29,721 nt of DNA, taken from a virus. The stretch covers positions 1-29,721 of IMG/VR virus record IMGVR_UViG_3300037346_000086. One strand, written 5' to 3'. The notes below the pieces were generated by a model. That model was not told where the DNA came from, searched no databases, and was given only the letters and a program-made list of their open reading frames with translations. Shown one piece after another: positions 12,181 through 28,519 of this stretch; position 1 is the first letter of the stretch; each line of letters opens with the position of its first letter. The position numbers were made by a program, and so were the translations under genes.

Positions 12181-14271
12181 TTAGAGCTCGATAGCCGCAG
12201 CGGTTGCGCCACCTGTTGTGTCACGAAGAGCAGCAGCAACACCATTGACCGAGATGGTCGATGTGACTGCAAGTGCCTCGACACCAACAAATGCGATTCC
12301 CTCGAAGGTCTCAACGAACATCTTGTAGTCGTTGGTACCAGTGAGTGTGCTGTCCCGAATGATTCCAAGGTCCAGAGTACCGCCGTCGAGGAACAGGAAG
12401 CTGCCCTCAGCGAAAAGGTACCATGTGAAGGAGTCAGGGAACTCCAGGAGCGCGGCAACGCCCTGGCTACCATAGACGTTCTGGTCAAGAGATACAGTCA
12501 GGTTGATGTTACGCGAGGCAACATATCCGTCAATCTCGGAACCAGCGTTGAGGGTGCTGTCACCAGGCATTGCCAGGGTGAGGTCAGCAGCCATTGCATC
12601 CTTGACCCAGCCAGGAACGATTGCACGCAAAGGCGCATCTGCTTCCATGCGGTGACGGCTGCGGTACGCAGCAGAGGCGCGACCCATCTGCACGAGGAAG
12701 TCGCGACCAAAGCCGATAAGGCTTGTGCTGGTCACGGCTGTCGATGCAGATGCAATCTTGCCGAGCAGGTACTGCTCTGCTTCACGTGAGTGCTGAATCA
12801 GACCAAGCTCGTTGTGACGAGCAATCAATTCAGGGTACGCACGAGTTGCGAGGTTACCAAACTGCATCTGAAGCGTAACAGCGTCTGTTGCAACTGAGTT
12901 CTCAGCGGCAGCGGTAACTGTAAGGCTTGTCTTGGCAGACGGGCTTGGTGTTTCTGCGGCATCGTTAGCTGCAGTCCAAACGCCTACGGAGTCACCGTAT
13001 GCAGAAAGGATTGGCGGGGTAACGAAGCGGATACCACCACGGTCAGCCTGGAAGCGAGCAAGTGAGTCGCGAACAGGGCGGTTTGTGGTGCCGAGACCAA
13101 AGATGTCGTACTTGGTCTCAAACGGAGCAACGTGTCCACCAGAAGCAACAAGTGCCTCGGGGGAAGTTACTGCGCTTACCTTTGCCCAGTTGGATTCTGC
13201 ATCCTGTGTAAGGGTGCGTGCCTCTGGGTATTCGGTTGTGACAGATGCAACGATGTGCTGCTCTCCGTCACCGCCGTTTACACGGCGAAGTCCGTGAAGT
13301 CGCTTAGCCATAAGCGATGCGACTTCGGACATTGTTTCTACTGTGCTGCCTGCAGTGTAGCCTGGGATGTCAGCGCCTGCCGTGATTGCCACGGGAGCTA
13401 CTGATGTCCGAGCTGCTGGGCGGCGGTCAGCTGGGGCTTCGAAAGCCTCTTCTGATACGGCGGCGGTCACTGGTGCCTCCTGCTCTTTCTGCTCTGTGAG
13501 AGCATCTGGGGTTTCTTGAATTGATGCTTCGGTGTCTGCCTTATCGGCTTCCTCGTCAGCTTCTGCCTCTTCGGCATCTTTCATATCTTCTTTATCATCG
13601 GTTTTGTAGGTTGCGCCTGCTTCAGCTGCATCCTCGACGATAACGTCTGCTGTTGTCTCCTCGACAGCTGCCTCAGCGGCAACCTCTGTCTCAGTTACGG
13701 TATCCGTAACGACAACCTCTTCTACAGCTGCCTCAGTGGCAGGTGCGGCTTCGATTGTTGCTTCGGTTGCGGGCTCTGTCTCAACAACGGCTGCCTCAGC
13801 GGCAACCTCTGTCTCAACAACAGCCTCTGTGTTCTCTGTCGCGGTCGACAATTCAGAACCTTCTTCCTGTGCAGTTGATGCTTCAGCCATAGGCTTCTTC
13901 GGCATTTCCTCGTCCTCAACGGAAGGCATAGGACTTTCGTCCTTGTCCTTGTCGTCATCAGAGTCAGACTCGCCATCAGCCATAGGGCCGTCAGCCATTT
14001 CATCTTCGTTGTCATCGTCCTGACCCTTTACGCGCGTTGCGGCTTCGGCGGCGCGTGCTGTCAGCTCTTCAGCTGCAGCCTCACGACGCTTGACCTCACC
14101 GCGCACGGTGTCAAGCATGTCAGCAAGAGATGTCATGGCGTCAACTGTCTGTGGAGTAGGATCTTCCTTCTCGACCGTTTCAAATTCGCCGACAATAGCT
14201 GTTTGAAGCTCGGTGACTTGTTCGTCACTGAGTTCGGTCAGTGTGTCCAGCATTTCTTTGATTTGGTCCAC
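12181..14271 (-). CDS. Major capsid protein with long acidic scaffold-like N-terminus, 696 aa
   Basis: The start is set at the GTG at 14271, directly behind GGAGGAGGG; the more upstream GTG at 14295 would place that site inside the coding region. Residues about 1-300 are helical or acidic: EMLDTLTELSDEQV, then a low-complexity Glu/Ala/Val/Thr part (repeated ETEVAAEAAV). From about 300 an HK97-fold capsid protein begins (AGADIPGYTAGSTV). Its C-terminus is diagnostic (YLFAEGSFLFLDGGTLDLG, IIRDSTLTGTNDYKMF, VETFEGIAFVG). The capsid core is about 395 residues. In HK97-like systems the N-terminal delta domain acts as internal scaffold and is cut off by the maturation protease, here coded by the next gene upstream. 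A cut near residue 300 is my inference. Confidence 0.9.
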   Translation of the reverse strand: MDQIKEMLDTLTELSDEQVTELQTAIVGEFETVEKEDPTPQTVDAMTSLADMLDTVRGEVKRREAAAEELTARAAEAATRVKGQDDDNEDEMADGPMADGESDSDDDKDKDESPMPSVEDEEMPKKPMAEASTAQEEGSELSTATENTEAVVETEVAAEAAVVETEPATEATIEAAPATEAAVEEVVVTDTVTETEVAAEAAVEETTADVIVEDAAEAGATYKTDDKEDMKDAEEAEADEEADKADTEASIQETPDALTEQKEQEAPVTAAVSEEAFEAPADRRPAARTSVAPVAITAGADIPGYTAGSTVETMSEVASLMAKRLHGLRRVNGGDGEQHIVASVTTEYPEARTLTQDAESNWAKVSAVTSPEALVASGGHVAPFETKYDIFGLGTTNRPVRDSLARFQADRGGIRFVTPPILSAYGDSVGVWTAANDAAETPSPSAKTSLTVTAAAENSVATDAVTLQMQFGNLATRAYPELIARHNELGLIQHSREAEQYLLGKIASASTAVTSTSLIGFGRDFLVQMGRASAAYRSRHRMEADAPLRAIVPGWVKDAMAADLTLAMPGDSTLNAGSEIDGYVASRNINLTVSLDQNVYGSQGVAALLEFPDSFTWYLFAEGSFLFLDGGTLDLGIIRDSTLTGTNDYKMFVETFEGIAFVGVEALAVTSTISVNGVAAALRDTTGGATAAAIEL
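13667..13816 (-). repeat. Direct repeats in the acidic scaffold domain
   Basis: A 27-bp stretch beginning GCTGCCTCAGCGGCAACC is repeated perfectly at 13667-13693 and 13790-13816, in the same frame. Both copies encode an ETEVAAEAA unit. The region between is built of similar Glu/Ala/Thr/Val units. Likely source: slippage in a disordered domain. Confidence 0.8.
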
Positions 14272-14274
14272 TGT

Positions 14275-14283
14275 CCCTCCTCC
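14275..14283 (-). promoter_or_regulatory. Ribosome binding site deciding the capsid gene start (GTG 14271)
   Basis: GGAGGAGGG on the minus strand lies 3 nt ahead of the GTG. Its exact core, GGAGG at the left part, is 6-7 nt away. This supports the GTG at 14271 over the one at 14295. Confidence 0.7.
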
Positions 14284-14299
14284 GGGGCAGTCCACGACA

Positions 14300-14404: not shown

Positions 14405-17400
14405 TTAGGTTAGTAACCGGAGTAACTTACTCAATTCAGAGCTTATTTGGCTTTGGTTGAACATGTCACCTCCAACCATGTAGGAACGAAGATTCTCAGT
14501 CGCAACGTCGGCATCTTCCTTCCCAATCTTGTCTTCAACCCGCACAATCATGTCATCGACAAGGTCGCGTAGGGCAGGGGGCAAGTCACTGAAGCGCACC
14601 TTTTCGAAGTCAATTCCGAAGGGTAACGGAAGATTGGCAATGGTCTCGCCAAGCTCCCTCGCTGACATCCGCACATTCTCCAAGGCCCTAGGGTTTAGGG
14701 CACCGGTGTCGATACGGTCGATAATGCCAATAAGGTCCGTGGCTGAACGTGCAGCCTCGATATAGTTACCAGCATCATCAAGATTCTCAGTTTCAACAAT
14801 CTTGTCTATCACGTTCTGAAGCCCGCTGTCACCAGCGTTCTGCTTGATACGTGCTAGTACCGTGCGAAACTTACCTTTAGTATCACGCGGCTGAGTCTTA
14901 CCGGAGATGTATTTTGCTCCGGTATCCTTTGTCTCAGCCGCGAGTGCTTTTTTTGATGACTCATCCGTAGGGATAAGGCCTTCTTTAGCTGCTTCTTCAG
15001 TTCCAGCAAGCTCAGTAGAGGCATCAGTCTCAATGACTGCCTCATCTGTAACCGATGCTGTAACACCGCCAATACGGTCACGCAGTTCATCAAGCTGCAT
15101 AGACAGCTCGTCTGAGGCCATGCTCTTCCACTTATCTGGGATAAGGTCAGGTCTTCGCAACTGGCGTGCTCTCTTCATAATGTGACGACGGATAGCCGCT
15201 CTCTTGCTCTTCTTACCGCGCCCGTAGGCAGAGATTGAGTCCTTTAGAGAATCAAGGTTGGTAATTGGGAACGAACCATCTGGAAGCGCCTTACCCTCCT
15301 GAGCAAGCTTTTTACGAGTTCGACGTGGAATGTAGCCAAAGCCATCATCGTAGTCGTAGTCAGCAAACATCTTGTCAGCAAGTTCCTCCGCCTTTGAAGC
15401 GAGCTCTGTGCGTCGTTGTGCGCGCACCTCATCAAATCGGGACGAAACGTCTGCTATTTTAGCAGAAAGTTCCATTTTCTCTAACTGCTCCAGTTTTTCA
15501 ATACGAGACGCTAGTTCTGCCACAGGGTCACTCTTCATGCGCGCAAGTGTGTTTGCGCCAGCCGCGACAAGTGCCATGACTTGGCCTGACGCAACGCGCG
15601 CTCGAGCAATCGGGAACCCAGGCACATTCACCTGGCAAACCGCGACCAGCTCCAAGCTTCCCTTTACAGGACGCCAGTCGCCGGAAGGGGCAGAGGCGCG
15701 AAGTGCGCGCACCTGCTCTGGTGTGGTGCCAGGGCGAAGAGCGCCCGCAACCCAGATGCCATAAGCATCTTCACCAGCATGGACATCTGCAATCGCTGAG
15801 GCTGTATCGTCATAGTGACGTGCGGCGTCTACCGCGCTAGCCTCAAGCGAGGCATGTCCGCCCGCTAAAGTCAACTGACCAACCGGCATGTCGTCACCCA
15901 CGTCTGTGCGAACTACTCCGGTGTGGAAGTATGCGTACTTGCTTCTAGAACGCGGTGGCCTAGTGCCAAACGACATTCCAATGTGGTCAACATGCCATGC
16001 GGCAATATGCCCATAAACTCGGCCCTCGTCATCAACTGTCAACGGGGTTGCCTTATCTAGTTTTGGATCTTGAAACCAATTCTTAGGTGGAATAACGGGG
16101 ATTGCCGCGGCAACCATGCCTGACGCGACGATAGCCGCTGCCTCGGTCGGGTCCATATCTTCCACATAGACTCCGTCAGAAATCATGTTTTCCTCCTGTT
16201 TCTCTTCCTCATCGATGATAAGGATTTCGCATTCTTGGAACGCAGGCTTAGGAACTATGGTAACGGCCATCACTCTTGCCTGTGTTATGTTTAGCTTCTG
16301 CTTTTCAACCTTTTCACCGTCTTCATTCTCGAACTCATCAGTTACCTCCTGAGCTTCGAACTTATCCATGTCGGCTGAAACACCACGGATAAAACCTTCA
16401 CGAACTAGACGTTCAGCCTCCTGGCCAAACTCTCCCGTGTCAAAAACGCCATAGGCATTTCCAATACCCTTCTCTGTGCGCTCCATGCGGTCGATACGAC
16501 CAACAACAACTGAACCCATGTGTCCGTCAGCTGTTTTTATCTGCCAAAGCAATGGCAATGGAAGTTCACGCATTTCAATCGCATCTTTTTCAAACTTGCG
16601 ACCATCACCTGACTCTAGCTGCTCAGGAATAACAAGAGGGATATAGAACTTTGCGCCCGAGTAAGACGCCTCGCCGAGTCCTCCTGCAGTCAACACGCGC
16701 GCCTTAGCATCACGCATTCTTGCGTTTAGCACTGCCTTGTCAACAACCTGCTCGGTACTTGCAATAACGTCGTTACTAAACAAGTTCTTACCTCCTCCTT
16801 TTCTGCCATAGAGCTGGCGGTGAAGCTTGTCACCAGTCCATAGTCCTGTTGCTTCCTTGTGGCGCAATGAGCAGTAGCCCTTGGCACGAGGTCCCATATA
16901 CTTTGATAGATACCGAACGCAGCGAGTCCAGTCACCTCCGGTGTTCCAACGAATCTTTGCGGCACCCTTTCCATACAACCAGTAACGGCGAAGCTTCTCT
17001 GCCCCGCCTCGGTTGCGGTCAAGCCCACCAGCTGCTCTTACCGCAAAGATGCCACCAAGTCCATCACCAAAAGCTTCATCATCTTCTCCCTGGGTGTCGT
17101 CCATAAACTCTTCGTAGTTCTGGGCCATGATGTCCTCACGAGGACCCCACAGAACCATTAGCATAAAGTCAAGAGGCAAGACAGCAGACGCAGTTACTGC
17201 CTCCTCACCGTCAATCTGTGCAAGAACACTTGTCAGTGTTTCAGAGTCAAGTGGAACAACAGGTGGAGGAGTCGCGGAATTGAGGTCACCAATGATGCCC
17301 TCGTCACGAATCCACTTCTTATCTTTTCTCTTCCATGCACTAGGAAGGTTAGATTTAGGTCCTGCTGGAACAATTGCGATTAGGTCTAGAACCGCACGAG

Positions 17401-19210
17401 GGTCATCTGGAGAAACAAGTGCGGTAAACAATGGCTGCACATCTGAGTTTTCCGGAGTTATCTCTTCAATGGTGTCTTCACCAGCGGCTGCTGTTACTGG
17501 CTGATACCAGAGACTATTAGGTGTAGTAGTTCTACCGTTCTTACGCCGCTTTGCACCTAGCCAGTCCTTGAGCATCGGGTGGTCATATGCGTCTACAGTT
17601 ATGTCCTGCCCGGTTGTCTTTGTCAACCAGTCACCGTATTGTCCAAGCTTCGGGTCTGCAGCTCTATCAAGAGGCGTTCTTGCATCGTCAGACATCGGAC
17701 GCTCGTCTGGCATCTTCCCGACCTCTACAGGAGTCGATTCAGGAGCTGCCTTGAAGTCGTCCCTTTGAGACTTTACCCATGCAGGCCAGTCGTACAACAC
17801 AGACTGCAGGTCCTTGGCTGTCAAAGCTGGTAAAGTGCCTGGAATCTGTGCGTTAGGTCTGTCAATTGGAGTACGAGGTTCACCAAGAATTCCAGAGACA
17901 TCAAGCGCACGCACATCCTCAATGTCACCGGCGTATGTGTTTATGTAGCTTTGAACCGTTTGAGTAGAGTTAGCTGGAACATTGACTGTTGAACCACTAT
18001 CTAACTTTACATCAACGCTTTGGTCGTCAGGGTTTATACGTGAAATAGCTCCAACCTGGTTAGGGTCACCACCAACAACTACACGAGAACCTTGAGCGGC
18101 AAAACGTCCATTGGAATCACGAACCTGTCGTGTCGCATTTTCCGAACGCTCCTCTGGGCTGTAGCCGTCATCTAGAGGCTCCTCGCCCGCGGCTGTAATC
18201 GCATAATCTATAACTGTCCAGTCAATCTCACCAGCCGCGTTAGCAACCATCTCTGCCTCAAAGGAATCGATATCCGCAATGGAGACCTTTTGGAAAGGCT
18301 GCTGCTGCATGCGTGCAGAGATGATAATCGCTGAGTCGGCATCAATAATTACGTGGTCTTTTTGAACCTCGTCATACACCTCGTCAAGTTCCTTGTCGTA
18401 GGCGTACACGTCTGAGTTGACATTGCCCATGGTGCCCCAGGAGGAATCGTCCCAAACGTAGACCATTCCATCAAGGTCAATTTTGTAGAGCCGGTCAATG
18501 CCAGAACCGTCAAGTCTAACGCGGCAAAGAAACTCAGGACCCACATGTTCGTCAAGCTCGTGCGCTTCCTTGAACGCGCTAACCTCACCCATATATCCCG
18601 AGGTGGTCTCATAGTTTTCATACTCACTGTTGTACGCAGGGGTTGCGTAGCCATCAGCGGTTACAGCCTTCTTGTTCTCGCGGTCAACTATTCCTTGTGC
18701 CCAGCGCCATGCAGAATCTCCACCCCAAAGAGCCCAGGCAATGCGTCCACGTGAAGGGAAGTTGTCCTCACCTAGCTCATACCCTTTAGCCTTTTTATCA
18801 ATCTCATGACGCGGGAAGTACTTCGCGATATGACGAATCTTCTCGAGGCCGACCTGTCCACCTTTAGAAAGTGTCCGTGCCGTATTCATTCCAACAGGCG
18901 TTCCGCCACGCTTATACTCCTTGCGCCATGCAAGAGCTTTTTTAGCTTCGTTTTGGACACCCTTAGGTATCGTGTACATACGAGCAGACGCCGTGATTAC
19001 ATTTACATCAAGAGTCGTTAGCGCACCCTCAGCTAGGTCAACAATTCCTTGCGGATAGCTTTTGTCGGGGCTATCCCACTGCCCTGAGGCCATAAGCGCG
19101 TGAGCGTCGCCTGTCTCAACGATAATGTTGAAGTCCGTGTCAATAACAACACCGTTGTTCCCATTATGAAAAATAACTAAAGAATCTTTAGCAGCGATAG
19201 CCTTTGTCAC
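14405..19210 (-). CDS. Capsid maturation protease polyprotein, 1601 aa
   Basis: The start is the GTG at 19210, which shares one base with the stop of the upstream gene and sits behind GGGGAGG. Recognised parts in order: about 85-160, a domain with EYKRGGTPVGMNTART and PSRGRIAWALWGGDSA; R364-F370, the motif RDSNGRF followed by a small SH3/KOW-like barrel; about 725-830, a domain with GKGAAKIRW, RCVRYLSKYMGPRAKGYC, RHKEATG; about 845-1000, the HK97-type prohead protease (HMGSVVVGRID with His897, RGVSADMD with Ser945, ARVMAVTIVPKPAF); about 1045-1190, a domain with WFQDPKLDKATPL and YGHIAAWHVDHIGM; about 1235-1300, coiled coil; about 1307-1370, PDGSFPI and HIMKRARQLRRPDLIP; R1442-F1448, RDTKGKF ahead of a C-terminal region. 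Family members are usually 200-500 residues. The protease cuts scaffold and capsid. The extra parts are unusual, and may be processed. Confidence 0.85.
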   Translation of the reverse strand: MTKAIAAKDSLVIFHNGNNGVVIDTDFNIIVETGDAHALMASGQWDSPDKSYPQGIVDLAEGALTTLDVNVITASARMYTIPKGVQNEAKKALAWRKEYKRGGTPVGMNTARTLSKGGQVGLEKIRHIAKYFPRHEIDKKAKGYELGEDNFPSRGRIAWALWGGDSAWRWAQGIVDRENKKAVTADGYATPAYNSEYENYETTSGYMGEVSAFKEAHELDEHVGPEFLCRVRLDGSGIDRLYKIDLDGMVYVWDDSSWGTMGNVNSDVYAYDKELDEVYDEVQKDHVIIDADSAIIISARMQQQPFQKVSIADIDSFEAEMVANAAGEIDWTVIDYAITAAGEEPLDDGYSPEERSENATRQVRDSNGRFAAQGSRVVVGGDPNQVGAISRINPDDQSVDVKLDSGSTVNVPANSTQTVQSYINTYAGDIEDVRALDVSGILGEPRTPIDRPNAQIPGTLPALTAKDLQSVLYDWPAWVKSQRDDFKAAPESTPVEVGKMPDERPMSDDARTPLDRAADPKLGQYGDWLTKTTGQDITVDAYDHPMLKDWLGAKRRKNGRTTTPNSLWYQPVTAAAGEDTIEEITPENSDVQPLFTALVSPDDPRAVLDLIAIVPAGPKSNLPSAWKRKDKKWIRDEGIIGDLNSATPPPVVPLDSETLTSVLAQIDGEEAVTASAVLPLDFMLMVLWGPREDIMAQNYEEFMDDTQGEDDEAFGDGLGGIFAVRAAGGLDRNRGGAEKLRRYWLYGKGAAKIRWNTGGDWTRCVRYLSKYMGPRAKGYCSLRHKEATGLWTGDKLHRQLYGRKGGGKNLFSNDVIASTEQVVDKAVLNARMRDAKARVLTAGGLGEASYSGAKFYIPLVIPEQLESGDGRKFEKDAIEMRELPLPLLWQIKTADGHMGSVVVGRIDRMERTEKGIGNAYGVFDTGEFGQEAERLVREGFIRGVSADMDKFEAQEVTDEFENEDGEKVEKQKLNITQARVMAVTIVPKPAFQECEILIIDEEEKQEENMISDGVYVEDMDPTEAAAIVASGMVAAAIPVIPPKNWFQDPKLDKATPLTVDDEGRVYGHIAAWHVDHIGMSFGTRPPRSRSKYAYFHTGVVRTDVGDDMPVGQLTLAGGHASLEASAVDAARHYDDTASAIADVHAGEDAYGIWVAGALRPGTTPEQVRALRASAPSGDWRPVKGSLELVAVCQVNVPGFPIARARVASGQVMALVAAGANTLARMKSDPVAELASRIEKLEQLEKMELSAKIADVSSRFDEVRAQRRTELASKAEELADKMFADYDYDDGFGYIPRRTRKKLAQEGKALPDGSFPITNLDSLKDSISAYGRGKKSKRAAIRRHIMKRARQLRRPDLIPDKWKSMASDELSMQLDELRDRIGGVTASVTDEAVIETDASTELAGTEEAAKEGLIPTDESSKKALAAETKDTGAKYISGKTQPRDTKGKFRTVLARIKQNAGDSGLQNVIDKIVETENLDDAGNYIEAARSATDLIGIIDRIDTGALNPRALENVRMSARELGETIANLPLPFGIDFEKVRFSDLPPALRDLVDDMIVRVEDKIGKEDADVATENLRSYMVGGDMFNQSQISSELSKLLRLLT

Positions 19211-20328
19211 TATTTTGCCTCCCCGTTTGCGTCGTCTACAATTGGCCCGCCAGCTGCCCACGCGTTACATGTTCTCTCAGAGGCGCACTTGAAGTCGAGG
19301 GAGTTGCAGTATCCAAGTTCTCCAGCTTCGATTGAGCCTTCTGCCTCTTGATTACCTAGTCCGATTCCCTCTTCAATACAGTCAAGCATCTTACTTGTGC
19401 GAACAAAGAAGACGCAGTTACCGCAGACTGCAGACTTAGCTTCTCTTACGGTTGTCTTCCAGCGCTCGGCTTTATCTTGCCAAAATATATCATTAGGCTC
19501 TGCTGGGTTTAGCGGACCGTAACCGACGTTGTCAATGGCGTTCTGTCGATTGGTTAGATTTAGTTCAATATCCTTAGTTGCAGGTGGGCATTCTCCACTA
19601 TACTCGTCTTCTACAGCAAAAAATACAGAAGCCTCAGCGGTCTTCTCTTCTGGCTCATCACTGTCCTCATCGGCGCCTGCTCTAAAATCAACCTCGTATT
19701 TTTCAACGTCGTCTGATAGCAGCTGTTCGTTGTTTCCCTCTGCCATGTCATAAATCTTTATAAACTTAGGGTCTACTTCAAAAACAACTAAGTCGTCAAG
19801 TGCCTCGTTGTTTTTTGGCAGCTTGAACCAAGCGTTGTTCGACCTGATGTAGATACCTGAGTCAGCGGAGTACACAAGATAGCGCACCTCATTATCATTC
19901 TCATCAACGGCTGCATACAGGTTCTCATCGTCAGCTGGGGCATTAGGGGAAAACGCCGACTGAATCTCTGCCATGTATCGCTCCTCAAGTGAAGTAGCCG
20001 GGACCTCAGCGCCCAGGCGTGATGCCCAGGAGCCGTCAGAATCCTGGAAAGCTCGTACTGTGTAAATCTTACCGTAACTCGAGAACGTTATGTCTTCTCC
20101 AGTAGGGCTAATCTTTAGTTCTTCTGCACTTTCTATTGGGTAGTACCGTGTCCCGTTTACACTCCCAATAGCCGCATGTGGTTTACCATCGACGTCTTCT
20201 ACACCCACATAATAGGTAGGGTAGTAGTAATCACCCTCGGAACCTTGTGACTGCAAGACGGCAGGGGCAAATACATATCCGTCCTTTGCCCACTGTTCCT
20301 TTGGGCGCATTCTTAGTTTTCTGTCCAT
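19210..20328 (-). CDS. Virion-region protein with cysteine-rich C-terminus, 372 aa
   Basis: The ATG at 20328 is preceded by TAGGAGAG, 12 nt after the stop of the giant gene. The N-terminal half is beta-rich (FAPAVLQSQGSEGDYYY, VGVEDVDGKPHAAIG) and seems to hold two similar strands-and-turns regions, the second around DENLYAAVDENDNEV. About 225-240 is acidic linker. The C-terminal ~100 residues form a conserved phage domain with IDNVGYGPLNP and DIFWQDKAERW, then six cysteines at 302, 305, 317, 341, 348 and 354 in the order CGNC, DC, GYC, KC, TCNAW, ending in GGPI. The spacing suggests a metal or Fe-S site, loosely like high-potential iron-sulfur proteins (CxxC and CNAW), but this is a guess. 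Its place in the head block suggests a virion or injected protein. Confidence 0.7.
   Translation of the reverse strand: MDRKLRMRPKEQWAKDGYVFAPAVLQSQGSEGDYYYPTYYVGVEDVDGKPHAAIGSVNGTRYYPIESAEELKISPTGEDITFSSYGKIYTVRAFQDSDGSWASRLGAEVPATSLEERYMAEIQSAFSPNAPADDENLYAAVDENDNEVRYLVYSADSGIYIRSNNAWFKLPKNNEALDDLVVFEVDPKFIKIYDMAEGNNEQLLSDDVEKYEVDFRAGADEDSDEPEEKTAEASVFFAVEDEYSGECPPATKDIELNLTNRQNAIDNVGYGPLNPAEPNDIFWQDKAERWKTTVREAKSAVCGNCVFFVRTSKMLDCIEEGIGLGNQEAEGSIEAGELGYCNSLDFKCASERTCNAWAAGGPIVDDANGEAK
19218..19224 (-). promoter_or_regulatory. Ribosome binding site for GTG start at 19210
   Basis: GGGGAGG on the minus strand sits 7 nt before the GTG. The GTG overlaps the TAG stop of the 372-residue gene (TAGTG). 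Together these favour the internal GTG over the ATG at 19261, which would overlap the upstream gene by 52 nt. Confidence 0.75.
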
Positions 20329-20340
20329 GCGTCTACTCTC

Positions 20341-23300
20341 CTATGCAGTTGGTACGGGAAGGTCTTTGCTGGTGCCTGCAGAGATAGCAGCCTCGAGCGG
20401 ACGACCACCAATCTCAGTTATGCCCATCTGGCGCAGCTTTTGAATAATTATAGTGCGTTCTGCCTGACTTGGAACTATAAACACATCAAGGTCGTCAAAT
20501 GACACGCGGTGCTTGAACATAAGCTCATATGCTCCGGTCTGCGCGGCCTTGATAATATCTTGGTCGAGTTTACGAGCTCCATAAGAGTCTGAGTAATTTG
20601 CGTAGAAGTCAAGGCGCTGGTACATTTTCTCTGGGTTGAAGTAGAACATATAACCACCAGTTCCAAATTCCTTGGCGCTTGCATTTTTTACAGGCTTAGT
20701 AAAGACGTAATCAGCACCGCCTGTTGCGACGTCAGTATGACTAGACATGCCAGACGTTCCAATTCCTTCTGTCCAACGCGTTGTGGTGGAGAGCAATCCT
20801 CCTTGTGGATTAGCTAAAAGATTGGCTATCCAATCCTCAGTGGTAACGCCTTGTCCTCCAAGATAAGGAACACTCAAGTTATGTTGTATCGCTTCAGGGT
20901 TTCCAGTGGCATTTACAATTTTCTGTGCGCCCTCTGGTGAAAGCTTAGTTTCAATTCGCCCTGATGCTCCAGTGGAAATAACAACGTCATCGGGTGTTAT
21001 TCCATACTTATCTTGAATGCGCTGTAGACTTTGTGCGCGCTCTTCACCAGAAGGATTCTTTGTGGCATCTGTCTTAGAGTCAAAGACGCTCATTAGACGA
21101 TTCTCTATGAGTATTCGCGCGTCACGCGTTGTCGCAGGTCGTGTATCGGCAACTCCCGCCTGCTCTAATGCTTTCTGAATCTGTTCCGGTGTTGCATCGG
21201 CAGGAGCTTGAATCTCCACAGTGTTGTGGAATGCCTGTCCACCTTCTCCCTTTGGAACGCCACTTCCACCCGTTCTGTTACCGCGATTGAAGTTGATTAC
21301 AATTCCATCTTCTGTGGTAATTTTCCAGCTGTATCCGCCACTTGCCTGGTAGGACGTCTCGGTCATGGATATCTGGCCAATTCCGTCTGGTCCAACGTTG
21401 ATACGCTCAACTACCATTGAAGAAGTTCTAGTGATTCCTAACGCATTAGCCTGTGTCTTGTCAAGTGCAAGAAGAGATTTTGCCTTTGCGTTACCAGCCC
21501 ACGCGGTTAGTTTGAACTTGAACCGTAGACCATCCTCGCCCTGCGCGTTACGAACACGCATGACACGAACGTCAAGGTCCTCGATAGAGTCAGAGTCTAT
21601 CGCTGCTGAGCTTCCACGCATAGCCGCGGTGTTCCTTCCAGTCGCGCTCTCTTGCTTGACCTGCCCAATTGCGTCTACCAAGGAAGGAACATCAGTAAAG
21701 TTTGATGTCTCCCAGCTGTCAGGGTTTTCAACAACAACAACCTGAGTTCCTGCAGGAGTAACTTTTCCAGCCTTAGGTTTAGGCGTGCTCACCGAGCTTG
21801 TTGCGCCTGGTGGAGGTGGAACGGAGCCCGGCTTTACATTACCGGTTGTGCTAAGCGTCGCGACTGAGCGCCAACCGGTACTTCCATCTTCAAACTCAAC
21901 GAACGCGTAGTTATCCTTGTTTACCTTCTTGACAGTTCCAGTCTTACCCTTTTTGTCAGTAATCTCTACTCCGGAGTAGATAAGGTTCGTGCTAAGGTTC
22001 TCAGCTACAGTCGCGTTGCTGTCTTCTGGCTCCGGTGATGGAGTATCTTCGTCATCAAGCGCTGTTGCTCTTTCCTTATTTGGAACCTCTGCAAGCTGCG
22101 ACTCGATTTCTTGAGCATCCTGCTTACTAGACCCAGTCTTATACAGATTTTTCATAATGAGAGCTTGAAGACCTGAGTTATCGCTCCAGTCCTTTTTCTT
22201 GTACTCTGCGTCAAGCTTCTTGTATTCCTCACTTGTCATGAGACCATTGCTGTCTACATCGGAGAGACTTGTCATGTTCTTTATAACCTCAAGCCCCTCG
22301 CCCTCTGTGGTATATGGGTTGGACACCGCGTTGACGAATACCTCCACGCCGCTTGATATGTCTTTTTTGTCTAGCAACTCAATAATCTTGTTGCGTGTCT
22401 CATCTGTCATAGGGCCATTGATGTCTACCTCTGGGACTGCTGACTCTGGCTCAGGGGCTTGCTCTTCTGGAAGTTTTTCAAAGTTTGCTATGGTAAAGTT
22501 TTTCTTCTGGCCATCGCCAAGGTCCTCACCATACATGTTGATGTTGCCGTTCTTTGGGTTATCCCATACGCTTTGTGGAATCACCTCACGAAGTTTTCCC
22601 TTATAGAAGAAGCGAATCTTGTCGCCCTTGTCCACTGCAGCCTCAACCTGGGCACGAACGTCGCCATCAACATCAATGTCAATGACATTGCCAGATGAAC
22701 CAGGCTCGGGCTTGTCAGGGCTAGGTTCCGCATCAGGCGCATTTTCCACGATAGGTTCTGGCTCAATCACGGGTATCGGGCTCTCGGGGGCGTTCTCTGG
22801 GACTAGTGTTTCGCCGCCAGTGAACTCTTCAAGCTGCTTAGTCGACTTGTTCTTGGGCTTCTCATTACCAACCTGAACAAACACGTAGTTCGGGTTACCC
22901 TTGTCATACTTGATAACCGTGCCAACTTCTTTAGTCTTACTATGCACGACCTGCATGCCAATAGTGATGGGCGTTCCGCTGCCAGTCTTGTATGGGTTAC
23001 CTGAATCAGACTCTACCTCAGGGGTTTCAAGGTCGATTGGCTCTGTCTCTTCGACTACAATCTCGTCAGCATCCTCATCTGCAACCTTAGTGTTATCAGC
23101 GATTGTTCCGGTGTTTTCGCCCTGTAGTCCAAACTTCTCAAGAATAAACTGACGACGCGCCTTTAGCAGTGCCTTTAGGTCATCGCCAACAACTGTGTTA
23201 CTAAACGTCGCGTCAACCATCTTGTCGATATCCTCATGGGAGATATCCAGCAGTCTCTCAGCGGAAGCCTTCTTGTCCTCGTCTGACATATCACCAAAGA

Positions 23301-26300
23301 TATCAGCGGATACCGCGTTCATGCTTGGGTCAACAAAGGTGTCAAGCTCATTTACCTCGTCACCAAACGCGCTGCCCTTTGGCGCACCTTGCGCTCTAAA
23401 CAACAACGCTCCACCTGGGTCAACACGAACTGGTTTTCCTTCGCCGTCTGTCATAACGTTGTCATAGACGAGACCGCCGACATCCCAGTTGGCTAACCAT
23501 GCATCAACGGCAAAGCCTTCTTGAAGCTTCTTACGGTACTCTGGGTCGTTTAGGCGAGACTTTAGGTCCTGCTTGGAATTCTTGATGTCAGGTGAGTAGG
23601 TGTAGTAGTCACCGCCATCTTTTCCAATGTAAACTTCTGCCGCATCAATTCCGGCTAGGCGGTAGAGAGCTGACGCAAGAGCTTCATTCTCGGCGTGCCC
23701 CTGCGACTTTGCCTTTTTGACGTAGTACCTGTTTCCGTCTGGGTCCTCGTAGAACCCACCTTCGTTAGAGCCTAGGGCGCCAGTCTTTTTCTCCCAGTCG
23801 GAGATGTCTTTTATGTCTGAGACCTGTATGGCAATTTCGCTTGATTTACTTTCAATTATAGAAGGTACTGGCTCATCAATAGGCTCTGATGTCTCTGGCT
23901 CTCCTTCAACATCAGCGATGTCCTTTAGAACCTGGTTGGTTTCAATTCCTTGTATCTGTAGAGCGTCACGGATAGCCTCAACGGAAATCTGTGCGTCAAA
24001 TCCATCTTCAATTGGGTACTCTAGAACAGCTAGTCCGCTTCCATCTTCAACACCACCACGGAATACCTCAAGGAGGCTTTCCATCTCCCACATCCTTGCG
24101 ATGTACAAAGGGCTGTCATCAAACTCGTCTGGCATGCCTTCCATGTTTCCAGGAGTGTAGGCGTCTGTGCTTAGCTGGTAATACTCTCCTGGCATGTCAA
24201 CGTCTTCATTGATTAGTAACAACGGAGCGTAGTCGTCCTTATAGCCCTCAAGAACAGCATCACGGTCGTTGACCTTACTAAGCTCGACGTTATAGCGCGT
24301 TTTACCTTCTGGAGTTGTACCCTCCTTTACGGAGACAATCTTATAGTTACCCCAACCGAGAGCCTCTGCCTCGAGCTCATACAAGGAGATATTTGAAATA
24401 TCAACAGAGTTACCTTTACCCTGGGGGATAGTAAAGATTACCGCGGCCTTGTCAGTGTTCTTCGAGAAGACACCAGAGAAGTTTCCAGCAGTAGTCTTAT
24501 CAGTTGTGAATGACCTTGGGTCAATCGAGATAAACCCACCTTCGTTGATATAAGCCTGTAGCTCCTCTGAGTCTGGGTCAAGCTGTATTCCTCGATACAA
24601 CTTTGAGACATTCGGCTTTGTCAGCGCAGCGATAAGTCTGTACATCGCAGTGGCGGTTGTATCATTGTTGAAGATATCAACCTCGCCTGTGGCGATTTGC
24701 TCCTTGCCGTTTAGCAGGTCCGTGTAGTAACCAAACTCAGCAAAGAAGTCATCAATCTCTCCCTGCGAAGGTGTACTACCGTTATACTCAAACAAGGCGT
24801 CAGCCACAGCATTTGACAGCATGCTTTGCCAGCCTTTTTTCGTGTAGCCTCCATCAGTTGAAAGCAAAACACCAAATAGACCACGGAAGGCTTGACGTTC
24901 GTCAGGGTTATCACTAAATGCCATTTCAATGTTTACAGCCAGCAGAGCGCCTACATCTGCGTCAGTATCAAGTGCGGTTATTAGACTAGCCATCTTGACA
25001 ATTTCTGGGTTGGACTCTCCATTGTCCACCGCGGCCTGCAGCTGCACGGCTGCGTACTGCGCAATCTCTGGCTTTGCCAGCCACTTGTTTAGCGCAATAA
25101 TTTCTTCAACCTCGTCAAAGATTTCATCATCCTCGTCGAAGTCGTCAACAATCTGTGGACCTTCAACTTCACCGACAGTTTCACCCGTACGTGCCGAGTC
25201 GAGGATATCGACGTTCTTTGACTCGCCAGTGCCCATGTCGTAGAGCTCAGCAAGAATCATATCGGCGTCTTCGCCTTGCTCCCTTAGCGCACCGTGCAAC
25301 GACTCAGCGGGAACCATCTCCTCACCGAATGAAAACTCAAGGCCGCCAAAACCAGTACCCTGTTTTGCCTTGGCGGTAGTCTTCTTCTTGGCACCAGCCT
25401 TGCCCTGCTCGCCAAGACCATCAAGCATCTCGTCAATGTCGGCGTCATCGTAGTTCTTCTCGCCACGGACAGCCTCAGCAAGAGCGCTAATGAGCTCGTT
25501 CTTTCCAAACTTATTTGCAAGTACCTTAGGGTCATCTGTAAAGTCAGGTGATTCCTCGTCAATACGACCCTCTGGCTCGTACTCTTCAGGCTTGAATAAC
25601 TTGAACGCTCCATCAGGTACGTCCCACTCTGGCTCAGGGGCAGCCTCAGGAGTAGGCGGAACCTGCGGGGCAGACACTGGAACCGCCTGTGGAGTAGGCT
25701 CGGCGTCAGGAATAACGGCCTTGACCTCTACCTTTTCAACAGGCTCAAACTTGTCTGGGGCATCTTCAATTGACTTTAGGCCTTTTCCAAAAGCAGCCCA
25801 TTTGTCCTTCTGTGCCTTTTGTGGAAGGTCGACAAAGTTACGCGTGTCATAGTCGTCCTTTGCACTCTTCCACTTAGAGTTATTATCTAGCTCAGCAAGA
25901 ACATCCTCGCCTGAGGCACCAGACTCAAATAGCTCGCGGGCTTTTCCACTCTCGTCATATTTGTCAATAAACGCAAGTGCCTCGTCGCGACGCGCGTTGA
26001 CATCACTTTCTACAAAGCTGTCAAACGCGCTATCAGCCGCGTCCCAGTCTGCAAACTCTTTTTCACCGTATGAACCGGTAAATCCACCGTCCTCCGTATG
26101 GTAAAGGTTTCCCTCAGCACCCTGCTCCGTTTTTGTGTATGAAACGCCCTTGTGTTTTTCAATGTTCTTTGTGACGTATTCCTTATCACCAGAAATCAAT
26201 GATGGTCCAGGTGTCAGCTGGCTCTCGTTCTTTACAGCTTCCCAGCCATCAGGAATCTTGTTACCAAACGGGTCAAGACCTTTAGCAAGATTGGCGTCAA

Positions 26301-27717
26301 TCTCGGAACGAACAGCATCATTGCTCTTCATTACCTCCTCGGCGTTTTTCTTATACGCCTCACTTGAAGCCTTAGACGCAGCAGCGGAGTCCTTCTGCTT
26401 AGACTTTTTATCTACGTTGCTTTTTTGAACCTTTTCAAGATAGTCGGCAAACTTTTTCTTATCGCCTTTAGCACGGTCGTTGCTTGCAGACCACGACTGT
26501 GATATAAGAACTGCCTGCTTTTTAGTGTCAGGTGTCTCCTTACGGTACAAAACATAAAGTGGCTTATCCTTATTGAACTTTGCCTTAGTGCTGAGGTTAC
26601 CATCGCGGTCAACGCGTTCGGTGAACTTACCTACGAATTCTCCAGGAGCCTCTGAACCAATGCCACCATTGTGGACATACGCCTTTTGGACGTCAGCCTG
26701 TTCGTACTTGCCACCTTCAAAGTACTCGACGACATAGCCGTCCTCGTTTTCATAAACCTTGTCCGGGCCTAACTCACCCTCTTGCTTCTCCTTGACAAGT
26801 GTCCAGCCGTTAGGAGCGTCAATAGGGGCAAACTGTGAGATATCCATTGCGTCAACGTCAGATGGAAGGTCTACCTCGTCGTCGCCAATGCCAGGGATAA
26901 ACGCCTTGATAGCCTCTGCGTTCTTTGATGGAATGTCATATAGACCGTCAGGAATATCTGGGTCATCAAGAATCTCGACCTGGAAGCCGTCACTGGTGCT
27001 AGAGTTTCCGATGTACTGTTTTACCTTAGACTTGATGTTGTTGCCAACGCGAACAAAGAACTGTAAGCCTCCGCCTTCATAGGCAAAACGTCCTTTACGG
27101 TCACGCCTTTGCGCTTCAGCCCTTGCGGATTTGCCAAGGTCAATGAATACAGTCTCAGAATCACCATCAACCTGCGCGGCAATAATGATGTCCTGTGGAA
27201 CAAGACCAGCAGTGACAGCCGTGAGCCGTGCGGCTGCATGTCGTTGCTCGACGGATAGCATAGGGTACGAAAACGCGGAGGAGACAAGTGCACGGGCACT
27301 GTCGTCGATACGTGGGTCAGCCGCAATCCAGCGCGCAAGAGCCTCTGAGTGGGCCGAGGCGGTCATTGCATGTGGACGCGTTGATAACGGGTGACCGATA
27401 GGCAGAAGGTCACGATGACGTGTTTGGTGGACAGGCACCTTGCCGTGGATTGCTAATGAAACAAAAGATGCAACCTCACGGTACGCGGCAAAGAACCGAG
27501 ACTTCTTTTCCATACCAGTGGTGTTATTTAGTGAGCGCGAAGCAACGATGTCAATATCGCGCTGGGTAACTTGACGTTCCTCTGGAACCTTCTGGTTGTA
27601 CTCATTGGCAAGTTCATGGATGGCACGGCGAAGACTGGCAGAAGACCTTGGCTTTATCTTTGAAGGTACACCCTCTGTCTGCTGCTTAGCGATAAGCATG
27701 TTCAACAGGTTATTCAC
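20341..27717 (-). CDS. Giant polyvalent protein with ADP-ribosyltransferase-like and kinase-like domains, about 2458 aa
   Basis: The start is the GTG at 27717 (AAGGAAGG 8 nt upstream, 8-nt overlap with the upstream gene), rather than the ATG at 27759. Parts in order: about 20-115, a domain ending RDLLPIGHP; R205-F211, RDRKGRF; lysine-rich and acidic linkers, Pro-rich at about 660-695; about 1030-1130, an ADP-ribosyltransferase-like domain with LYRGI (Arg1042), SFTTD (1069-1073) and ELEAE (Glu1116, Glu1118), fitting the R-S-E class; about 1315-1545, a kinase-like domain with YYVKK after V1333, NWD (D1412), YDN (N1420) and DPGG (1433-1436), of the HipA/PI3K-like type; KOW-like barrels at about 1585-1635 and 1908-1955; a WYL-like patch at about 1685-1750; about 2315-2445, a conserved domain with TGGADYVFTKP. 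ART and kinase domains together mark polyvalent proteins of phages, injected to modify host targets. That role is inferred. Confidence 0.75.
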   Translation of the reverse strand: MNNLLNMLIAKQQTEGVPSKIKPRSSASLRRAIHELANEYNQKVPEERQVTQRDIDIVASRSLNNTTGMEKKSRFFAAYREVASFVSLAIHGKVPVHQTRHRDLLPIGHPLSTRPHAMTASAHSEALARWIAADPRIDDSARALVSSAFSYPMLSVEQRHAAARLTAVTAGLVPQDIIIAAQVDGDSETVFIDLGKSARAEAQRRDRKGRFAYEGGGLQFFVRVGNNIKSKVKQYIGNSSTSDGFQVEILDDPDIPDGLYDIPSKNAEAIKAFIPGIGDDEVDLPSDVDAMDISQFAPIDAPNGWTLVKEKQEGELGPDKVYENEDGYVVEYFEGGKYEQADVQKAYVHNGGIGSEAPGEFVGKFTERVDRDGNLSTKAKFNKDKPLYVLYRKETPDTKKQAVLISQSWSASNDRAKGDKKKFADYLEKVQKSNVDKKSKQKDSAAASKASSEAYKKNAEEVMKSNDAVRSEIDANLAKGLDPFGNKIPDGWEAVKNESQLTPGPSLISGDKEYVTKNIEKHKGVSYTKTEQGAEGNLYHTEDGGFTGSYGEKEFADWDAADSAFDSFVESDVNARRDEALAFIDKYDESGKARELFESGASGEDVLAELDNNSKWKSAKDDYDTRNFVDLPQKAQKDKWAAFGKGLKSIEDAPDKFEPVEKVEVKAVIPDAEPTPQAVPVSAPQVPPTPEAAPEPEWDVPDGAFKLFKPEEYEPEGRIDEESPDFTDDPKVLANKFGKNELISALAEAVRGEKNYDDADIDEMLDGLGEQGKAGAKKKTTAKAKQGTGFGGLEFSFGEEMVPAESLHGALREQGEDADMILAELYDMGTGESKNVDILDSARTGETVGEVEGPQIVDDFDEDDEIFDEVEEIIALNKWLAKPEIAQYAAVQLQAAVDNGESNPEIVKMASLITALDTDADVGALLAVNIEMAFSDNPDERQAFRGLFGVLLSTDGGYTKKGWQSMLSNAVADALFEYNGSTPSQGEIDDFFAEFGYYTDLLNGKEQIATGEVDIFNNDTTATAMYRLIAALTKPNVSKLYRGIQLDPDSEELQAYINEGGFISIDPRSFTTDKTTAGNFSGVFSKNTDKAAVIFTIPQGKGNSVDISNISLYELEAEALGWGNYKIVSVKEGTTPEGKTRYNVELSKVNDRDAVLEGYKDDYAPLLLINEDVDMPGEYYQLSTDAYTPGNMEGMPDEFDDSPLYIARMWEMESLLEVFRGGVEDGSGLAVLEYPIEDGFDAQISVEAIRDALQIQGIETNQVLKDIADVEGEPETSEPIDEPVPSIIESKSSEIAIQVSDIKDISDWEKKTGALGSNEGGFYEDPDGNRYYVKKAKSQGHAENEALASALYRLAGIDAAEVYIGKDGGDYYTYSPDIKNSKQDLKSRLNDPEYRKKLQEGFAVDAWLANWDVGGLVYDNVMTDGEGKPVRVDPGGALLFRAQGAPKGSAFGDEVNELDTFVDPSMNAVSADIFGDMSDEDKKASAERLLDISHEDIDKMVDATFSNTVVGDDLKALLKARRQFILEKFGLQGENTGTIADNTKVADEDADEIVVEETEPIDLETPEVESDSGNPYKTGSGTPITIGMQVVHSKTKEVGTVIKYDKGNPNYVFVQVGNEKPKNKSTKQLEEFTGGETLVPENAPESPIPVIEPEPIVENAPDAEPSPDKPEPGSSGNVIDIDVDGDVRAQVEAAVDKGDKIRFFYKGKLREVIPQSVWDNPKNGNINMYGEDLGDGQKKNFTIANFEKLPEEQAPEPESAVPEVDINGPMTDETRNKIIELLDKKDISSGVEVFVNAVSNPYTTEGEGLEVIKNMTSLSDVDSNGLMTSEEYKKLDAEYKKKDWSDNSGLQALIMKNLYKTGSSKQDAQEIESQLAEVPNKERATALDDEDTPSPEPEDSNATVAENLSTNLIYSGVEITDKKGKTGTVKKVNKDNYAFVEFEDGSTGWRSVATLSTTGNVKPGSVPPPPGATSSVSTPKPKAGKVTPAGTQVVVVENPDSWETSNFTDVPSLVDAIGQVKQESATGRNTAAMRGSSAAIDSDSIEDLDVRVMRVRNAQGEDGLRFKFKLTAWAGNAKAKSLLALDKTQANALGITRTSSMVVERINVGPDGIGQISMTETSYQASGGYSWKITTEDGIVINFNRGNRTGGSGVPKGEGGQAFHNTVEIQAPADATPEQIQKALEQAGVADTRPATTRDARILIENRLMSVFDSKTDATKNPSGEERAQSLQRIQDKYGITPDDVVISTGASGRIETKLSPEGAQKIVNATGNPEAIQHNLSVPYLGGQGVTTEDWIANLLANPQGGLLSTTTRWTEGIGTSGMSSHTDVATGGADYVFTKPVKNASAKEFGTGGYMFYFNPEKMYQRLDFYANYSDSYGARKLDQDIIKAAQTGAYELMFKHRVSFDDLDVFIVPSQAERTIIIQKLRQMGITEIGGRPLEAAISAGTSKDLPVPTA

Positions 27718-28519
27718 TGTCGGTACCTTCCTTGTCAATCCTAGGCAATAGGTCAGCATCCTTTGAGCTGTAAAGTGCAGATGCTAAAACGGCAGCACGG
27801 GCAAACGGAGATTCATTATCTCGAATACCGCGCATCCATGCAGCACGAAGAGCAGGGATAATCTCGTAGCCTTCTCCGGAAAGCTCAGCCATCGCAATGA
27901 GCGCATGCTCTGCTGAGTCGTATTCCATATCAGTCTTTAGTGAAACCGTAAGCTCCTGGTCCTCATAGGCTGAGGCAATTATCGAACTCTCGCCCTTGCT
28001 TGACTTCGGGTGCTTAGCGGGCAACAAGTCGTTATCCTGTTTGTAATTCGGATTAGAAGGCTTTCCAGACTTTAGCAAACGTAAAAACGCGTTTACGCGA
28101 GCGTATGCCCAACCATCACGCGTCATGCCTGGACGGTGACTAGATGAGAATGCTCCCGCGCCACGACGGTAGACAGCCTTTAGCATTCCAAGTGTAGCCT
28201 TGCGACCCTCAGGAGCTTTTTTATTATGCTTCTCTACCTTGTCACGCAGAGTTGCCTCTGTCTTTTTACTAAAGGTAATCTTCTTCCCACCAGCCGCGGA
28301 ACCTTTTTTGTTTTTCTTTGAACCGGATATGCGGTCCTTCTTAGGTGCACGAGGATTTGCAAAGTCTGCGTCAGAGTCGTCTGCGGAATCTTTAGGGACG
28401 CAGTTGGGAACCATGTTTCCGTTCTTGCCCTTCTTCATTCCAACCTGCTTGTACCCATCCCAGCATGGACTCTGCCCTGCGGCAGTTACAGAGTCGCTAG
28501 GCAGTTGGTTCTGATTCAC
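27710..28519 (-). CDS. Conserved phage head-region protein with DLLPxxHP domain, 269 aa
   Basis: The GTG at 28519 has GAGGAG 7 nt upstream and overlaps the portal stop by 23 nt. Residues about 18-43 carry a cysteine motif seen in many phage proteins (CWDGYKQVGMKKG and PNCVPK). A Lys-rich linker (KKNKKGSAAGGKKI) follows. About 85-172 is a domain with KHNKKAPEGRKATLGML, GAGAFSSSHRPGMTRDGWAYARVNAFL and DNDLLPAKHP. The same layout appears at the N-terminus of the next protein. The C-terminal part (LIAMAELSGEGYEIIPALRAAWMRG) is helical. The function of the domain is not known to me. The place between portal and the giant effector protein, and the shared domain, suggest a role in the head or as an internal protein. 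Confidence 0.7.
   Translation of the reverse strand: MNQNQLPSDSVTAAGQSPCWDGYKQVGMKKGKNGNMVPNCVPKDSADDSDADFANPRAPKKDRISGSKKNKKGSAAGGKKITFSKKTEATLRDKVEKHNKKAPEGRKATLGMLKAVYRRGAGAFSSSHRPGMTRDGWAYARVNAFLRLLKSGKPSNPNYKQDNDLLPAKHPKSSKGESSIIASAYEDQELTVSLKTDMEYDSAEHALIAMAELSGEGYEIIPALRAAWMRGIRDNESPFARAAVLASALYSSKDADLLPRIDKEGTDSE
27726..27733 (-). promoter_or_regulatory. Ribosome binding site for GTG start at 27717
   Basis: AAGGAAGG on the minus strand with 8 nt to the GTG. It supports a start inside the 3' end of the upstream gene. The ATG at 27759 lacks a comparable site. Confidence 0.7.

Follow-up and report, generated by a model that had tools for sequence, protein, structure and literature searches.

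A probable self-processing head-maturation polyprotein with two protease-fold domains in a freshwater actinobacterial phage

Introduction

The systems closest to the protein analysed here are the S78/assemblin prohead proteases (HK97 gp4, T4 gp21 and herpesvirus assemblin) and the head-processing proteases of giant phages (SPN3US gp245, phiKZ), in which one protease and one short motif serve for capsid, portal and ejection proteins as well as for self-processing. SPN3US gp245 has nine head proteins, itself included, as substrates and cleaves them after A-X-E (PMC10052503). In actinophages, maturation proteases fused to MuF or to the capsid protein have been described, and one actinophage head protein of more than 4400 residues has been called likely processed (PMC7302621). 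Polyvalent proteins (Iyer et al. 2017) are long multidomain phage proteins with embedded peptidases, for which processing like that of viral polyproteins has been proposed; their assemblin-like peptidase is reported to lie always at the C terminus (PMC5512222). A search of the literature outside subscription journals returned no paper on tandem assemblin-like domains or on the motif code described below, and the main text of the Rosebush capsid paper contains no cleavage information.

The 1601-residue phage protein described here shares with the S78/assemblin proteases conserved Ser and His in one domain (D1), which has a weak S78 match, a D1 model that resembles EBV protease and T4 gp21, a gene adjoining the capsid gene, and a second domain (D2) of similar predicted fold. 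It differs from them in carrying two such domains per chain, the second without a Pfam family, in the middle of 1601 residues that include seven other modules. The same D1-D2 pair occurs in the actinophage capsid maturation protease/MuF-like fusions (PHROG 859, labelled portal protein), whereas our protein lacks MuF and has modules N1-N3, M1, M2, C1 and C2, several of which are separate genes elsewhere. In the giant phages the motif is A-X-E, the substrates are separate and cleavage is experimentally proven, while here the substrate would be a polyprotein. Unlike in the polyvalent proteins, the protease pair is tandem and central, and none of the modules is a recognised effector domain; only the two protease-fold domains can be recognised in the 1601-aa protein, where polyvalent proteins have several enzymatic effector domains.

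Results

An intact gene in the head module

The window, by which we mean the whole stretch of DNA analysed, is a 29.7-kb IMG/VR virus fragment from a freshwater actinobacterial phage, with its head module on the minus strand. The order on that strand is portal, 269-aa, 2472-aa, 372-aa and 1601-aa proteins, major capsid protein (704 aa), probable penton protein and tail genes; the portal gene is truncated by the contig end and lacks its N terminus. The gene of interest is the following.

14405..19210, minus strand: gene of the putative 1601-aa head-maturation polyprotein, GTG start, open frame

The minus-strand ORF at 14405-19210 encodes 1601 residues with no interruption. Its GTG start at 19210 overlaps the upstream gene's stop codon and has a strong ribosome-binding site, GGGGAGG, seven bases upstream; an alternative GTG lies 17 codons farther up in the same frame. 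The ORF is real, an intact gene in the head module of an actinophage. The first-pass annotation had placed a prohead protease inside a chain of this length, and this was confirmed. A frame error splitting the gene was not found: in 63 relatives the frame is likewise uninterrupted and similar in length, and the protein of Microbacterium phage Cece aligns end to end.

Modules along the chain and their relatives

The chain is composed of two protease-fold domains and seven further conserved modules.

18665..18982, minus strand: module N1, residues 77-182, resembling part of phrog_2859
18221..18553, minus strand: module N2, residues 220-330
17936..18178, minus strand: module N3, residues 345-425
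17207..17458, minus strand: module M1, residues 585-668, located in a separate gene in Sixama, Phendrix and Atuin
16811..17020, minus strand: module M2, residues 731-800, phrog_6439, two copies in several relatives
16202..16657, minus strand: D1, S78/assemblin-like protease domain, residues 852-1003, His897 and Ser945
15566..16105, minus strand: D2, second assemblin-like domain, residues ~1036-1215, His1132 and Ser1176
15122..15325, minus strand: module C1, residues 1296-1363, tandem-duplicated in L036, L049 and L080
14408..14917, minus strand: module C2, residues 1432-1601, a separate gene in ten relatives

The earlier count of at least four further conserved domains was true but understated, there being seven modules plus D2. 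Several independent modules thus share one frame, as relatives split, duplicate and separately encode them. A coiled coil, also proposed at first, is plausible by eye at residues 1226-1290, but a crude heptad scan of the 1601-aa protein did not single out this stretch. The C-terminal residues 1590-1601 (14405-14440) contain SKLLRLLT, near-invariant across all relatives, including those with C2 as a separate gene, and could be a docking peptide to the capsid interior.

Among annotated phages, Microbacterium phages Cece, Big4, A3Wally, Zooman and Pumpernickel have a protein that aligns with it over the whole length at 44-45% identity. In the Actinomycetia phage DSL-LC01, from a lake, the counterpart of the 1601-aa protein is spread over three consecutive genes. 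A whole-protein scan of IMG/VR for close relatives gave no matches; the D1-D2 alignment as query did match, and 579 candidate stretches encode relatives of this central region. The whole fused protein (1474-1969 aa) is present in 63 of the 80 best viral loci of these 579, a count that includes the window and Cece, and the giant fused form is therefore the norm of the clade. The first-pass statement that most family members are far shorter applies to isolated phages, where members are mostly ~330-1300 aa, but not to the protein's own clade. D2 is present in 831 of 50,697 phage records, and the bacterial genomes with the central D1-D2 pair are nearly all Actinobacteria.

Public records label D1-D2 proteins as portal protein or RNA ligase (PHROG 859; Kithara gp23; Gordonia phages MelBins and Tardus); these labels are probably wrong, or derived from another domain of the chain. 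We also observed that the 372-aa protein (19210-20328) has a cysteine-rich C-terminal stretch similar to those that terminate the middle DSL-LC01 gene and the split relatives L058 and L094, another module moving between chains.

Two protease-fold domains

D1 is an S78/assemblin-like domain. Its match to Peptidase_S78 (PF04586) in the window protein is weak (17.5 bits; curated cut-off, 21), but 9 of 24 relatives match at E <= 0.01, DSL-LC01 scores above the curated cut-off, and PHROG assigns D1 to S78 as well. His897 and Ser945, named as the protease core in the first-pass annotation, are invariant in 24 full-length proteins; over all loci, Ser945 is serine in 199/199 rows and His897 is histidine in 188/199. 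The alignment rows and the model place this predicted catalytic Ser and His correctly in the fold.

A search of solved structures with the D1-D2 tandem model gave EBV protease and T4 gp21, and we attribute these matches to D1 because D2 alone, searched with Foldseek against the PDB, matched none. Sequence searches of the PDB with D1, D2 and the capsid protein gave nothing meaningful. The AlphaFold model of D2 is confident. When compared with viral models by Foldseek, D2 retrieved its own relatives first and then mostly prohead proteases, with probabilities of 0.9-1.0 and low TM-scores (0.3-0.4 against the prohead proteases). In the tandem model both domains finish in strand-strand-helix-strand-strand; the conserved serine (Ser945, Ser1176) is the third residue of the corresponding strand, and the conserved histidine (His897, His1132) lies shortly ahead of the first strand, with a His-Ser spacing of 48 in D1 and 44 in D2. 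The models make it likely that D2 is assemblin-like in fold. A Pfam search with D2 returned no family and the profile-profile comparison of D1 with D2 was not significant; its kinship to S78 is therefore argued from structure, and we file D2 as assemblin-like by fold, outside S78. A fixed D1-D2 pseudodimer was also considered and is unsupported: pTM was 0.54, the linker between the domains is disordered, and in some relatives 100-800 residues separate them.

Over all loci, Ser1176 is kept in 219/220 rows (one gap) and His1132 in 218/220, with two further histidines, His1119 and His1076, in 219/220 and 220/220. D2 is not a decayed copy, because Ser1176 and His1132 are kept in nearly every row, D2-only rows included. 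D2 was found in 219 loci and D1 in 198; D2 occurs without detectable D1 in 21 of its 219 loci and D1 without D2 in none, although the loci were gathered mostly with D1-D2 queries and D1-only cases could be under-sampled. In Gordonia phages Sixama, Phendrix and Bakery, whose genomes are complete, D2 is a small separate gene, gp79 in Sixama and gp72 in Phendrix, and no D1 or S78 domain is detectable. Of the two protease-fold domains, D2 is the more conserved and the one able to occur alone.

It is quite possible, though we do not lean towards it, that one domain alone does the work: D2 as the protease with D1 accessory or regulatory, or D1 as the protease with D2 binding substrate. The loci with D2 and without D1, among them the three complete genomes, in which the motif is still present in head proteins, and the constant company of D2 wherever D1 occurs speak for D2; D1, in turn, is the domain that clearly resembles known proteases. 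Against either version, D1 and D2 have each kept their Ser and His, which is what two active domains would show, and the bias of the D1-D2 queries weakens the argument from missing D1-only cases.

An ordered motif recurs between the modules

The linkers between the modules repeat an ordered motif, hydrophobic-[T/V]-A-[S/A]-[A/G]. The class [VILMA][TVIMS]A[SAG] has 482 occurrences in 46 non-redundant full-length proteins, compared with 167 +/- 11 in shuffles, and its positions recur, mostly at conservation minima between modules. For a narrower motif class, 302 of 368 instances are in linkers, which make up 28% of the length and were defined after inspecting the profile; the enrichment may be partly a matter of composition, since the linkers are Ala-rich. 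The order of residues matters: hydrophobic-T-A-[SA] recurs at ten separate inter-module sites, and other orders give the same sites in shifted register or only 0-2 sites. The sites are present in variable subsets, some relatives being without some of them. A weight matrix trained on the relatives, with the window excluded, found 11 sites in the window's 1601-aa protein as compared with 0.9 in shuffles. The candidate cleavage sites are as follows.

18986..18997, minus strand: ITAS, residues 72-75, preceding N1
18188..18199, minus strand: ITAA, residues 338-341, N2/N3 junction
17486..17497, minus strand: VTAA, residues 572-575, preceding M1; replaced by stop and start in L025
17186..17197, minus strand: VTAS, residues 672-675, M1/M2 junction
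16682..16693, minus strand: LTAG, residues 840-843, preceding D1
15560..15571, minus strand: LVAA, residues 1214-1217, following D2
15053..15064, minus strand: VTAS, residues 1383-1386, C1/C2 junction

Motif copies at 1027-1035, in a predicted helix, and at 1124, within D2, are probably structural and were not taken as candidate cut sites. A tail-fibre-like protein (1-879) has many ISADAITA-type repeats with a superficial likeness to the motif, and was excluded from the motif counts.

The motif in the capsid protein and other head proteins

Three further head-module proteins of the window carry the motif.

12181..14295, minus strand: major capsid protein; its N-terminal region is long and acidic, and VTAA at residues 276-279 (13459-13470) is a candidate maturation site
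27710..28519, minus strand: 269-aa head-module protein, candidate substrate, two strong motif sites at residues 11 and 180
20341..27759, minus strand: 2472-aa protein, candidate substrate, strong motif site at residue 132

In 67 of 70 capsid homologues the motif stands 29-35 residues ahead of a fixed point of the capsid core, where shuffled windows predict 7%. The weight matrix detected four sites in the window's capsid protein, the two strong ones in the 269-aa protein and the strong one in the 2472-aa protein, and nothing above 9.2 bits in the window's penton, tail and connector proteins. Sixama, which lacks D1, has single motif sites near the N termini of its portal and two large head proteins and further sites in its M1-M2 protein, D2 protein and capsid protein; its penton, major tail, integrase and glycosyltransferase proteins have none. 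Taken with the linker sites, this pattern suggests that the motif is likely to be a head-maturation cleavage code.

The portals of L002, L005, L010 and L018 have one strong motif site, at residues 23-36, which would fit the removal of an N-terminal propeptide. The 269-aa protein (27710-28519), which has a DUF5824 match, and the N terminus of the 2472-aa protein (27259-27759) have a domain in common (29% identity, E 2e-6), which ends directly at the motif (IIASA, MTASA) and is a candidate head-targeting propeptide. By eye, the 2472-aa protein also has an ADP-ribosyltransferase-like stretch at ~1000-1160 and a kinase-like stretch at ~1320-1550, neither of which was confirmed by Pfam on the window protein; its positional counterparts in Atuin and Sixama match an ADP-ribosyltransferase exoenzyme.

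Natural splits and duplications

The gene of L025 breaks exactly at site 572: where the window reads QPVTAAAGED, L025 has QPIVKGGNN followed by a stop, and a new start, MADKAGES. In L079 the break falls between D1 and D2. On the tree, C2, separate in ten loci, switches between the split and the fused state six times; supported branches force at least four of these switches, and one of the six is Atuin, where C2 is perhaps absent. In several split versions C2 retains a short leader that finishes with the motif (AVVAAP, AVLAAA, AVIAAP). The M2 and C1 duplications of relatives sit within linkers, the M2 copies often carrying a leading AAGGLDRN. Sixama, Phendrix and Atuin encode M1, M2 and C1 in separate genes or as part of other head proteins. 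We did not accept the first DSL-LC01 split (599/607) as a clean junction, because it lies within M1 and reads like a frameshift.

These breaks bear on whether the chain is cut at all. It could be a single-chain assembly protein, whose fusion fixes copy numbers and co-delivery to the prohead, with the capsid protein cut and the polyprotein left whole or cut once or twice. Protease-MuF and protease-capsid fusions are frequent in actinophages, and retention of the fusion in 63 of the 80 best loci could mean that the whole chain is required. We nevertheless consider this unlikely: the motif that precedes the capsid core recurs between the modules, L025 swaps it for a stop and a start, and linkage of the modules is dispensable because relatives encode them as separate genes. 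That the motif is merely a favoured, uncut sequence of flexible linkers, its likeness to the capsid site being compositional, would fit the position of most instances in low-conservation stretches, where such residues are common, but is improbable given how rarely other orders of the same residues recur, the near absence of the motif from tail, penton and connector proteins of the same genomes and its fixed position ahead of the capsid core.

Discussion

What stands most securely is that the head protein is intact, conserved and built of many modules, with Ser and His conserved in two of its domains. We infer cleavage at the code, its execution by D1 and/or D2, and the fate of the pieces. Since the chain combines two protease-fold domains with modules whose linkers resemble one another as possible cut sites, it probably processes both itself and neighbouring proteins while the head is assembled. 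Overall we regard it as fairly probable that the protein is a head-maturation polyprotein whose D1 and D2 cut at a shared code, freeing modules and trimming head proteins.

The most likely mechanism, modelled on SPN3US gp245 and the assemblins, would run as follows. The polyprotein would be made as a single chain and enter the prohead, where D1 and/or D2 would become active and supply the maturation protease. Cuts at hydrophobic-[T/V]-A-[S/A/G]-[A/G] would free the flanking modules, strip the capsid protein of its acidic N-terminal region and remove N-terminal parts from other proteins inside the head. The likely pieces would be, approximately, 1-74, 75-340, 341-574, 575-674, 675-842, 843-1216 (D1-D2), 1217-1385 and 1386-1601. 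Once freed, they could be internal proteins, propeptides or scaffold, and might remain in the head, leave it or be ejected with the DNA.

The first-pass interpretation, a self-cleaving polyprotein, is supported in part. The ordered motif at ten inter-module sites and before the capsid core and the splits and duplications in linkers make self-processing a well-supported inference; what changed is that two assemblin-like domains are present rather than one and that the fusion is ordinary in its clade. We advance only tentatively, and with some doubt, a bolder proposal: that one chain holds two active proteases alike in fold and divergent in sequence, that D2 founds a new protease family able on its own to process the heads of D1-less actinophages, and that in hundreds of actinophages one code (hydrophobic-T-A-S/A-A/G) directs cleavage of the polyprotein as well as of capsid, portal and large head proteins.

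If self-processing at the shared motif is correct, it would provide a testable head-maturation cleavage code for a large and abundant group of actinobacterial phages, allow prediction of the proteins packed and processed within their heads, and change which domain deserves the name of protease. It would also give the polyproteins of RNA viruses a counterpart among DNA phages, one whose split, fused and duplicated forms occur naturally and can be compared.
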